DNA from: Paludibacteraceae bacterium
GTDB lineage: Bacteria; Bacteroidota; Bacteroidia; Bacteroidales; Paludibacteraceae
Assembly: GCA_024693065.1 (NCBI GenBank)
Contig: JAILLP010000033.1
Location: forward strand, 62,001-126,000
DNA length: 64,000 nucleotides
Direction of reading: 5' to 3'
A program made the translations under genes and the position numbers. Below are positions 6,620 to 23,414 of this stretch, in pieces; positions within the stretch are counted from its first letter, which is position 1, and each line of letters starts with the position of its first letter. Below the pieces are notes generated by a model that had not been told where the DNA came from, searched no databases, and was given only the letters and a program-made list of their open reading frames with translations.

Positions 6620-6678
6620 CATAAATAAAACCTGTCAAATTGTTTGCAATCATGGCACAAAAGAAAGAATTAGTATTC

Positions 6679-6703
6679 AACTGTCAAGGAATACTTGACA
6701 GTT
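6679..6703 (+). repeat. RhuM cassette palindrome P1
   Basis: Inverted repeat AACTGTCAAG, 5-base centre, CTTGACAGTT (10-base arms). Read in the RhuM frame it spells STVKEYLTVQ, with the centre at the third base of the fifth codon, the same phase as the other three palindromes. Confidence 0.8.
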
Positions 6704-6729
6704 CAACAAGAAGACCGCTAGGCCTTTTC

Positions 6730-6754
6730 AACTGTCGCAAAATTTGCGACAGTT
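6730..6754 (+). repeat. RhuM cassette palindrome P2
   Basis: Perfect inverted repeat with 12-base arms (AACTGTCGCAAA / TTTGCGACAGTT) around a single central base. The encoded segment is STVAKFATVQ. Confidence 0.9.
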
Positions 6755-6845
6755 CAATCAGATGGTGGTGGACGGGTGAGACGTCTTGTGGAGTATTCAA
6801 GGATTGCTGGAGTTTGAAAATCAATTATAAAATTTGTTTGCAATT

Positions 6846-7079
6846 ATGGCACAGAAGAATGAAATAGTATTGTACCAGCCCGATGAGGCGGTAAGGATAG
6901 AAGTACGTATGGATGGGGAAACGGTCTGGCTGAATCGTAACCAAATGGCAACCCTGTTCGGACGTGATGTGAAAACCATCGGTAAGCATATCGCCAATGC
7001 GCTTTCTGAAGAATTGGCGGAAATTTCAGTTGTCGCAAATTTTGCGACAACTGCTAGCAATGGCAAAACGTTCATATAA
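6846..7079 (+). pseudogene. Truncated RhuM N-terminal copy 2
   Basis: 77 codons in frame from MAQKNEIVLYQPDEAVRIEV. The N-terminal DNA-binding region is intact (ETVWLNRNQMATLFGRDVKTIGKHIANAL) up to the variable segment SVVANFATTASNGKTF, where it stops. The next copy then begins with the same 5' sequence. It differs from copy 3 in the recognition-helix region as well as in the palindrome, so it is a diverged paralogue fused by deletion and not a recent exact duplication. A short HTH-only protein could still be made from it. Confidence 0.7.
7027..7053 (+). repeat. RhuM cassette palindrome P3
   Basis: Perfect 27-base palindrome, 13-base arms (CAGTTGTCGCAAA / TTTGCGACAACTG) around one base, inside copy 2 and in frame with its ATG at offset 181. 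The encoded segment is SVVANFATTA. Confidence 0.92.
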
Positions 7080-7092
7080 ATTGTTTGCAATT

Positions 7093-7929
7093 ATGGCACA
7101 AAAGAATGAGATAGTATTATACCAGCCCGATGAGGCGGTGAAAATAGAAGTACGATTAGAAAACGAAACCGTTTGGCTTACGCAGCAACAGATGGCTGAA
7201 TTGTTTCAAACAACACGTAATAACGTGACTTTGCATATAAACAATGTTTTTAAGGAACAAGAATTGTTGCGTGAATCAGTATGTAAGGATTCCTTACATA
7301 CTGCCACCGATGGAAAAAAATACAAGACAAAGTTGTATAACCTTGACGTTATCATATCTGTGGGTTACCGTGTGAAAAGTAGCAGAGGTACCCAATTCAG
7401 AATATGGGCGAATAAAGTGCTGAAGGACCATTTGCTGAGGGGGTATTCCATTAACCAACGATTTGAACAGTTGGAGCAGCGGGTATCCGAGACGGAGAAC
7501 AAAATAGACTTCTTCGTCCGCACCTCCCTGCCGCCCGTGGAGGGCATCTTCTACGACGGACAGATATTCGACGCCTACAAGTTCGTCAATGACTTGATAC
7601 GCAGTGCAAAGCGTCGTATCGTGTTGATAGACAATTATGTGGATGATACCGTCCTGCAAATGCTCGACAAGCGCCGGGAGCCTGTGGAAGCCACCATCTT
7701 CACCAAGAGCTTGAATGCCACGTTCCGCCTCGACGTGCAACGGCACAATGCGCAGTACCGCCCCGTCACCGTCCGGGAGTTTGCCCACTCGCACGACCGT
7801 TTCCTTGTGATCGATGATGAGGTCTACCACATCGGAGCCTCCATCAAGGACTTGGGGAAGAAGTGGTTCGCCTTCTGCAAGATGGAGCTACGGGCGGAGG
7901 AATTGCTGCGTAGGGTGGAAACTGTATGA
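7093..7929 (+). CDS. RhuM-family protein with C-terminal PLD-like domain
   Basis: 278 residues from ATG 7093. Residues 1-110 are the RhuM/DNA-binding region (YQPDEAVKIEV, ETVWLTQQQMAELFQTTRNNVTLHINNVF, YNLDVIISVGYRVKSSRGTQFRIWANKVLKDHLLRGYSIN). A coiled-coil-like linker (FEQLEQRVSETENKIDFF) leads to a C-terminal half with IVLIDNYVDD and HSHDRFLVIDDEVYHIGASIKDLGKKWFAF, resembling one half of a phospholipase D-type active site (HxD in place of HxK). RhuM proteins are often near mobile or restriction loci; the biochemical role of the family is unsettled. The variable segment SVCKDSLHTA is encoded by a perfect palindrome, and two broken copies of the 5' part precede the gene. Confidence 0.85.
   Translation: MAQKNEIVLYQPDEAVKIEVRLENETVWLTQQQMAELFQTTRNNVTLHINNVFKEQELLRESVCKDSLHTATDGKKYKTKLYNLDVIISVGYRVKSSRGTQFRIWANKVLKDHLLRGYSINQRFEQLEQRVSETENKIDFFVRTSLPPVEGIFYDGQIFDAYKFVNDLIRSAKRRIVLIDNYVDDTVLQMLDKRREPVEATIFTKSLNATFRLDVQRHNAQYRPVTVREFAHSHDRFLVIDDEVYHIGASIKDLGKKWFAFCKMELRAEELLRRVETV
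7277..7303 (+). repeat. RhuM cassette palindrome P4 (in intact gene)
   Basis: Perfect 27-base palindrome, 13-base arms (CAGTATGTAAGGA / TCCTTACATACTG) around one base, at offset 184 from the ATG, one codon different from copy 2. The encoded segment is SVCKDSLHTA. Confidence 0.92.
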
Positions 7930-8046
7930 AACAACAACCCTTCCATAGCCATGCCCGAAAAATAGAATTTGCATAAATGCTTTAATTTTATATCTTTGTC
8001 ATTTGATTATTCGTTACGTGTGTTGATTTAATTGATTATTAAAACC

Positions 8047-9255
8047 ATGAAAAGAGGATTAATTGTACTGTTCTCCTTCCTCGCTATCTTTACTTGCAGG
8101 GGGCAGGAGGCTCTCGGGCTGAATCCCGAGCTGAACATCACGACAAGCAACTTCCCTGTGCTGGATGGCTCTGAATCGACCAGTCCGCTACGGCTCATTT
8201 TGATGTGCAAGTTGTTGGGGTATGACTATGAGTGGCAATACAGCCCGTTTATCCAGCGTCAGGAGGATGCGCCAAGGTATGTTGAGCCTAACTATACATG
8301 TGACGAGGAGACGAGGCGTGACTTGCTGCTCAATCGCTTGCTGAACAACAACACGCACGGGGCGTTCGTCAATCTCATCGATGACAAGGTGGATATTATC
8401 ATTACCGCCAGAAGCATCTCCCGCGACGAGAAAGTCTATGCGGAGGAGCAGGGGGTGACCTTGCTGGAACAGCCGATCGCGCGGGACGCCCTCACCTTTA
8501 TGGTGAACGCGAAAAACCCTGTCAGCAACCTCTCCATCGATCAGATCCATGACATCTATATGGGGAAGGTCGCGAATTGGTCGGAGGTGGGCGGCCTGGA
8601 TTGCGTGATGAAACCGTATGTGCGGAACAGGAACTCGGGTAGCCAGGAGAAGTTCGAGACGATGGTGATGGATGGACTGACGATCGCGGATTTCCCTGAA
8701 ATGCAGATCGGTAGGACGATGATGTCTCCGTATTATCAGCTGGAGGATGACACGGCGGGCATTGCCTTCTCCCCTTTCTACTACTATAAGGTCATGGTGG
8801 ATAGCAAGAAGGTCAGGGCGGTCGGCGTGGACGGTGTGGAGATGACCAAGGAGAATGTCATGAACGGTACCTATCCCTACACGTCCAAGGTCTATACGGC
8901 GGTGCGCTCCGACATCGACAAGTCTTCCGTCGCCTACAGACTGTTTGAGTTCCTCACAAGCGAGGCGGGCCAGGCTATCGTCGACGAAAGCGGTTATGTG
9001 CCTTTGAACGCATACACGGGTGTGCGCATGACGGAGAGCGAAGCATTCGAACTGAGTTACAGCAACCATACCCTCACCATCCTCTCCCCGAATCTTCCTA
9101 AACGATTGGAAATCTACGACTTGGAGGGAAGAAAAGTGTTCGAAAGTGCGGTCCTCTCCTGCGACGTGCAAATACCGGAAGGTTTGCGTGGAATGCATGT
9201 GGTTTACTTGCTGCAGGGCGATGGAAGCCTCTGTGCGAAGAAGATTGTTTTCTGA
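8047..9255 (+). CDS. PstS-like periplasmic/surface binding protein with T9SS type A sorting domain
   Basis: 402 residues from ATG 8047 (an in-frame TTG at 8032 is less likely). A signal peptide (MKRGLIVLFSFLAIFTCRGQ) leads a PstS-type type II binding fold: DIIITARSISRDE, DALTFMVNAKNPVSNLSIDQIHDIYMGKVANWSEVGG, RNRNSGSQEKFE and a C-terminal helix region ending GQAIVDESGYVPL. These are the phosphate-binding (TGS/SGS-like) and domain-swap motifs. The last about 75 residues (LEIYDLEGRKVFES, EGLRGMHVVYLLQGDGSLCAKKIVF) fit a T9SS type A C-terminal domain. No pstCAB genes are nearby, so transport is not implied. Phosphate as ligand is a family-level guess. Confidence 0.82.
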   Translation: MKRGLIVLFSFLAIFTCRGQEALGLNPELNITTSNFPVLDGSESTSPLRLILMCKLLGYDYEWQYSPFIQRQEDAPRYVEPNYTCDEETRRDLLLNRLLNNNTHGAFVNLIDDKVDIIITARSISRDEKVYAEEQGVTLLEQPIARDALTFMVNAKNPVSNLSIDQIHDIYMGKVANWSEVGGLDCVMKPYVRNRNSGSQEKFETMVMDGLTIADFPEMQIGRTMMSPYYQLEDDTAGIAFSPFYYYKVMVDSKKVRAVGVDGVEMTKENVMNGTYPYTSKVYTAVRSDIDKSSVAYRLFEFLTSEAGQAIVDESGYVPLNAYTGVRMTESEAFELSYSNHTLTILSPNLPKRLEIYDLEGRKVFESAVLSCDVQIPEGLRGMHVVYLLQGDGSLCAKKIVF

Positions 9256-9332: not shown

Positions 9333-9645
9333 CCCGTGTGATTACCTATCCCCAGGGCGTTGCCCCGGGCTATATAATGTGTTGGGCTTTCAGCCCGTTG
9401 GGGAGGCCCGACCAGGGAAGCGATTCGCATGATGGAATTCTTAACTCTTAATTCTAAATTTTAACTTTTAATTTTATAAAATGCCGCCACCCCGTGTGAT
9501 TACTCTATCCCCAGGGCGTTGCCCCGGGCTATATAATGTGTTGGGCTTTCAGCCCGTTGGGGAGGCCTGACCAGGGAAGCGATTCGCATGATGGAATTCT
9601 TAACTCTTAATTCTTAATTTTTAATTTTATAAAATACCACCTCCC
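9333..9645. repeat. Tandem 158-bp intergenic repeat, two copies
   Basis: Two near-identical copies (9333-9490 and 9491 to about 9645) begin CCCGTGTGATTAC. They contain CCCCAGGGCGTTGCCCCGGG and TTGGGCTTTCAGCCCGTTGG, both self-complementary, followed by A/T-rich TTAACTCTTAATTC tracts. Differences are a few single bases. The GC-rich core resembles a palindromic element common in intergenic DNA of Bacteroidales and some other phyla. No transposase is present here. The rest of the 9256-9796 gap holds only the hairpin at 9273 and more TTAATTC tracts, with a TACCTTTG promoter -7 element at 9690 for proS. Confidence 0.85.
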
Positions 9646-23386: not shown

Positions 23387-23414
23387 GTAGAGACGCAATG
23401 CATTGCGTCTCTAC
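23387..23414. repeat. 28-base perfect palindrome
   Basis: GTAGAGACGCAATG followed directly by its reverse complement, 66 bases after recQ. This GTAGAGACGCAATG type of inverted repeat is common in intergenic DNA of many bacteria (REP-like). Confidence 0.85.

Follow-up and report, generated by a model that had tools for sequence, protein, structure and literature searches.

The window analysed here, a stretch of 64 kb from a Paludibacteraceae genome, contains three tandem starts of a RhuM-type gene, termed C1, C2 and C3. Four palindromes (P1 to P4) accompany them. The features are listed below; the columns of the coupled residues, which are described further on, were mapped by hand.

6640..6675, + strand: leader repeat and first codons of dead cassette C1 (ATG at 6652)
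6679..6703, centre 6691: palindrome P1, in dead cassette C1 (25 bp, 11 of 12 pairs)
6730..6754, centre 6742: palindrome P2, in dead cassette C1 (25 bp, 12 of 12 pairs)
6846..7079, + strand: cassette C2, a 77-codon open reading frame with a predicted winged-helix domain
6963..6986, + strand: codons of the C2 coupled residues R40-K47
7027..7053, centre 7040: palindrome P3, predicted site of the C2 protein (27 bp, 13 pairs; 12 of 12 scored)
7093..7929, + strand: full-length gene C3, 278 aa, with a RhuM N-terminal domain and a weakly PLD-like C-terminal part
7210..7233, + strand: codons of the C3 coupled residues T40-L47
7277..7303, centre 7290: palindrome P4, predicted operator of the C3 protein (27 bp, 13 pairs; 12 of 12 scored)

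The leader TTGTTTGCAATYATGGCA is common to C1, C2 and C3 (copies at 6640, 6834 and 7081). C2 and C3 are near-identical over the leader and the first ∼20 codons, after which the recognition helix and the palindrome differ; the C2 frame stops 17 codons past the start of the P3 block. A single pair of P1 is mismatched; P1 is also present in four of six loci from the same genus, and the half-site core is identical in P2 and P3. Translation from the ATG at 6652 is not in the frame of the P1 and P2 peptides, which a TAG also separates, and both palindromes are therefore in dead cassettes.

A first-pass annotation had described palindromes of 25, 25, 27 and 27 bp, each centred on the third base of the fifth codon of a ten-residue peptide (STVKEYLTVQ, STVAKFATVQ, SVVANFATTA and SVCKDSLHTA). 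Lengths and centres are borne out. It also had each palindrome start at the second base of a TCA codon and lie within a coding peptide; P3 and P4 start there, P1 and P2 start at the third base of TCA, and these two lie in dead cassettes. The palindromes are real features of the sequence: the four lie within 625 bp, the entire 64 kb window has seven palindromes that reach 11 of 12 pairs, these four included, and dinucleotide shuffles of 6640-7303 yielded seven such sites in total over 1000 shuffles, against the four observed. At position 23400, apart from the RhuM array, is a perfect even-centred palindrome, AGAGACGCAATGCATTGCGTCTCT (12 of 12 pairs). A 125-nt direct repeat of 97% identity (9346-9470 and 9505-9629) is found 3′ of the open reading frame at 8032-9255.

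The C3 protein is a member of Pfam family PF13310 (RhuM), with 75.8 bits against a cut-off of 33.7 over residues 62-129, the alignment spanning just 69 of the 252 model positions. The match starts at residue 62, which is the serine encoded by the palindrome. In PADLOC the protein matches the candidate defence family PDC-S05 (E = 1.3e-131) and is also filed under PDC-S23. The match to PLDc_2 (E = 0.1) is under that family's cut-off, and NCBIfam and PHROGs gave nothing useful. An AlphaFold model (mean pLDDT 76.5; 91-95 in the blocks from 31 to 60) places the recognition helix at residues 42-54, so that the coupled residues 40-47 would form the first half of the helix and the preceding turn. The strand at 64-70, the first of the wing in the model, is encoded by P4. 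A PDB fold search with the model gave 0 matches at E 0.001 or better; the weak matches include TFIIE/TFE and MarR-like winged helices. The N-terminal domain is therefore predicted to be a winged helix from the order in which elements follow one another in the model.

Homologues of RhuM were detected in 115 of 395 Bacteroidota genomes (E 1e-5) and, at E 1e-20, in 47 of 299 genomes of a phylum sample centred on a Clostridium genome and 85 of 398 genomes of one centred on a Pelistega genome. Sequences were taken for a part of all matches, namely 30 loci and 80 regions, 30 loci and 20 regions, and 30 loci and 60 regions, respectively; 80 loci from genome contigs (the best 80 of at least 580) and 19 loci from viral contigs were added. 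The HMM gave 380 matches, of which 372 were kept after 8 were dropped for gaps in the block, and 303 genes were left after removal of copies >90% identical and of genes too close to the locus end. A palindrome of at least 9 of 12 pairs is found at the same place in 301 of these 303 non-redundant genes, with all 12 pairs present in 132; the remaining two (L120 and L006) score just 8. The centre is in the register of the window gene in 283 genes, shifted by +8 in 11 and by −1 in 7. The 301 genes display 91 distinct half-sites (right arm, positions 3-12). A nucleotide search in E. coli for a RhuM gene like that of locus L096 gave no match.

DNA symmetry is under selection within the RhuM coding region, as the first-pass annotation had claimed, and the comparison it proposed, of homologues with codon-shuffled controls, gives symmetry in excess of the controls. 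The mean is 11.10 of 12 pairs in the 283 main-register genes and 7.85 in codon shuffles that retain the peptide; 267 of the 283 genes are individually significant at P < 0.05. At other third-base centres the mean symmetry is 2.9 and the maximum 4.2. Pairs 3, 6, 9 and 12, which join two wobble positions, are Watson-Crick in 98, 99.6, 87 and 99.6% of the 283 genes (expectation, 24-33%), such that a symmetric site in the protein's own gene is kept at synonymous positions, as a self-encoded operator would be. Four of the ten block columns have a synonymous codon identity of 0.82-0.99 and the remaining six one of 0.49-0.73; off the block the average is 0.39 (sd 0.13), with no column above 0.64. Moreover, the same 15-bp palindrome, TTCGGAAATTCCGAA, is found in two frames, encoding RKFR in L016 (main class) and KFGNSE in L045 (+8 class), in proteins whose reading residues are alike at six of seven positions. 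The ORF6N sequence GGTCGCAAATTGCGACC is likewise translated as RSQIAT (L222) and as VANCDR (L243). Since synonymous codons keep the palindrome and the same DNA is read in other frames, it is the DNA and not the peptide that is conserved.

For 288 genes (13 of the 301 were left out for gaps), the coupling of each protein column to half-site bases 3-9 was measured as mutual information, with permutation within clusters. The seven most strongly coupled columns are seven of the eight positions from −22 to −15 before the block (z 29-70), and the best column beyond these, at −31 in the same DNA-binding domain, has z 20; relatedness is controlled only loosely by these permutations, as one cluster comprises 207 of the 288 genes. 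It is better handled by 144 disjoint nearest pairs, in which changes in the helix correlate with changes in the half-site at rho 0.88 and divergence of the rest of the domain at rho 0.30. The seven residues had been chosen first in the same data; the ranking across all columns is free of that choice, and there the same seven rank first among the 116 tested. When the half-site is predicted from the nearest helix among proteins <50% identical elsewhere, 6.08 of 7 bases are correct. Prediction from the most similar rest of the domain gives 5.00 with any protein and 3.12 with proteins <50% identical, and random choice gives 3.19.

Parts of this correspondence can be read as a code. At residue −15, 94 of 96 genes with Glu have CCG, all 52 with Arg have TGC, all 14 with Tyr have TCG and all 44 with Leu have CTT or CTC; Lys is ambiguous (TGC 26, GGA 18, GTT 4, TGA 1). 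Arg at −19 is paired with GG in 29 of 29 genes, and Lys at −20 with AC in 130 of 140; Val at −20 occurs with AT in 32 and AC in 17 of 51. By hand, C3 (Leu47, Arg42) fits P4 and C2 (Lys47, Val42) fits P3, both genes being part of the data set. For the 17 off-register genes compared, agreement with the canonical genes whose helix is nearest averages just 4.0 to 6.5 of 7 bases. Site specificity follows the recognition helix of the same protein, and to judge from these comparisons the palindrome appears to change in step with the helix that reads it. That the palindrome is the operator of the protein encoded around it, one of the meanings offered at first pass, remains a prediction, but one that the covariation strongly supports.

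The trait is common to the ORF6N genes, DinD-type genes, many Bro-N genes and most KilA-N genes examined; the counts are softer than those for RhuM because the best palindrome in a searched stretch was taken. Of the 31 unique ORF6N genes, 30 score 9 or more out of 12 (elsewhere in the domain, 1 of 31 does), the centre falling at one model column in 27 and at the neighbouring column, in another frame, in 3. All 11 DinD-type genes reach 10, with even centres at one column. Among 44 Bro-N genes, 37 reach at least 9 (elsewhere in the domain, 7), 25 reach at least 10 (elsewhere none), mostly in one stretch, and 7 score 8 or less. KilA-N has at least 10 of 12 pairs in 15 of 19 loci, centred 144-176 bases into the match, although a single gene, present five times in one genome, accounts for five of the 15, and for these the second-best scores in the stretch are 8 to 10. 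By eye, Bro-N-type palindromes adjoin KilA-N or RhuM genes at five loci (L464, L126, L087, L095 and L385). Members of the KilA-N/Bro-N/RhuM superfamily may cluster together.

The dinD gene of E. coli K-12 displays 14 of 16 pairs at codon 63. Matches to dinD are present in 4668 genomes, 1526 of them covering at least 80% of the K-12 gene. Twelve records, from 30 listed, comprise four of the K-12 type or a near form, among them the shorter dinD of PK5086, and eight with another 5′ part. One of the eight, L487 from E. coli isolate 3702594, is annotated as two fragments; in the seven that are full-length, the first 246 nt are 59-60% identical to K-12 and the rest 96.5-99.3%. E. coli dinD (L450, L476-L487) thus has two highly divergent 5′ types. 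The palindrome of the second type, as measured in L487, has 10 of 16 pairs, a weak score that counts against universality.

Within the genus the array is variable, and 41 of 101 related genomes (its own included) match some part of the region. All six same-genus loci (L489-L494) have a P3-type copy as the 3′-most one, which continues into the effector part, as against a P4-type copy in the window. These P3-type effector copies are 277 aa in five loci, and in L491 the frame is lost after residue 176. Four of the six loci have P4 upstream, in a copy that is truncated or dead. An extra truncated cassette in L494 has the helix SADNVGLHL together with a CCTCGG palindrome, as the code predicts. Truncated cassettes are rearranged between genomes of the genus. 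Across seven genomes the dead P2 cassette varies at one of 25 palindrome columns, the unpaired centre base, and at 18 of 92 columns downstream, which suggests either that sites in dead cassettes are kept or that the copies are young. More speculatively, the array may store specificities.

P4 was not found elsewhere in its own 3.48 Mb genome with up to two mismatches, and no perfect P2/P3 core was found there beyond P2 and P3. Two imperfect sites for this core, with two mismatches each, are on contig C7 and by eye lie outside these families. The two near-palindromes on this contig (L474 and L475), TGTCGCRAAATKTGCGACG, have similar flanks, are 1.3 kb apart and resemble the P2/P3 core. A second operator near the gene was considered and rejected, as a second copy of the own site occurs at three of 301 loci (one being P2/P3), close to the 1.7 of a swapped-site control. 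Orphan palindromes near RhuM genes amount to 22 rows in 358 loci (∼1.07 Mb), or 20 distinct places, the rows for L001 and L005 being the same place (P1 and P2). By eye, those at L087, L095, L126 and L385 seem to be of Bro-N type, those at L053, L081 and L163 seem to belong to neither family, and the remainder resemble remnants of RhuM genes. They were rejected as second operators too: P2 agrees with the adjacent gene at 7 of 7 half-site bases and all others at 5 or fewer.

The first-pass annotation had also considered a recombination site for the swapping of specificity cassettes. The rearrangement of truncated-cassette arrays within the genus is real and fits, as do the orphan palindromes near other RhuM genes. 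A recombination site should, however, share a core, and the 91 half-sites differ and go with their own protein's helix. The blocks that differ, both between C2 and C3 and between the dinD types of E. coli, include helix and palindrome together, with their edges elsewhere, so the palindrome as a crossover point is unsupported, and the proposal as a whole is very unlikely. Lower in probability is an in-gene site for initiation of replication, as in RepA_N or repABC plasmids. Its precedents, according to passages of the papers concerned, are pSK41 Rep, whose N-terminal winged-helix domain binds Rep boxes inside the rep coding sequence (PMC5703833), and the oriV within repC, where silent changes destroyed function (PMC3155836). 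C3 has one palindrome, though, no iteron family is present among 20 of the 23 repeat families, and RepA_N is absent from the Pfam matches of C3 (E up to 1).

An mRNA hairpin that controls translation or decay, a further suggestion of the first-pass annotation, is more improbable yet: perfect symmetry would give a stem, but G-T mispairs occupy just 32 of 3010 cells at pairs 3-12, which argues against RNA, where G-U would be tolerated, and the half-site covaries with a DNA-recognition helix. Least probable of all is symmetry that arises incidentally, from conservation of the peptide or from templated mutation of quasi-palindromes, since, although templated repair can perfect palindromes, codon shuffles of the same peptide lose the symmetry and covariation with residues encoded 15-22 codons away is expected from neither cause.

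The computed selection on symmetry, covariation of helix and half-site, spread to related families and rearrangement of cassettes would be brought together by a self-encoded operator. It is quite probable, on sequence grounds, that the winged-helix protein of a RhuM-type gene has its operator within that gene, binds there as a dimer and regulates the gene negatively in cis. The operator would be two-fold symmetric, 15-22 codons downstream of the codons for the reading residues, and read by the same helix. Binding of a presumed dimer to the palindrome in its own gene would, as the most likely consequence, block transcription of that gene whatever promoter is upstream. If the site has no copy at the promoter, autorepression would need a roadblock ∼200 bp into the gene. 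A bare target could escape by silent mutation, so that near-absolute conservation would imply a benefit to the carrier gene, which favours autoregulation. Because they are within ∼100 bp of each other, reader and site travel and swap as one unit, and such a unit would suit a gene that is mobile and whose C-terminal part may be toxic or defensive. A role for the truncated cassettes is one that we infer.

Proteins of the KilA-N, Bro-N, ORF6N, DinD and RhuM types occur in many bacteria, phages and restriction-modification loci. RhuM has been proposed as a toxin domain in restriction-modification neighbourhoods (PMC3710099); the passages available from that paper on RhuM (PF13310; PADLOC PDC-S05/PDC-S23) say nothing of an in-gene site. 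The portions available of the PMC literature, including PMC5771137, PMC5704556, PMC3710099 and PMC8263062, gave no report of such sites, and a DNA target of KilA-N, Bro-N, ORF6N, DinD or RhuM proteins was not found in the portions searched. If these genes carry their own operator, specificity becomes predictable from sequence, with a residue-to-base code from natural pairs, and regulation is directly testable by silent mutations. A broader proposal, which we hold as tentative and somewhat doubtful, is that nearly all KilA-N, Bro-N, DinD, ORF6N and RhuM genes store their own target, and that the cassettes of this genus are a store of alternative specificities that re-target the effector. Storage across the superfamily would make thousands of cognate helix-operator pairs readable from sequence alone. 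The cassette store would consist of mini winged-helix open reading frames, each with its operator, whose replacement re-targets the full-length effector gene, comparable to mating-type or antigen switching.

Self-encoded sites are already known for replication initiators. The lambda O iterons, inside gene O, are self-encoded binding sites as proposed here for RhuM, but form a replication origin with several iterons. To our knowledge, no such sites with a readable code are known for transcription-factor-like proteins. In the RepA_N initiators, as represented by pSK41 Rep, reader and in-gene site are one unit, as would be the case in RhuM genes. The RepA_N proteins initiate plasmid replication and their four Rep boxes are in a linker that is dispensable, as described in a portion of the report (PMC5703833), whereas RhuM genes are not known as initiators and have one palindrome, which encodes the wing itself and is found in many specificities. 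The repABC plasmids also resemble RhuM genes, in that a DNA element is inside the gene of its own protein; the oriV in repC is an A + T-rich origin in which, according to the passages available, no repeats were found (PMC3155836), whereas the RhuM site is an operator-like palindrome.
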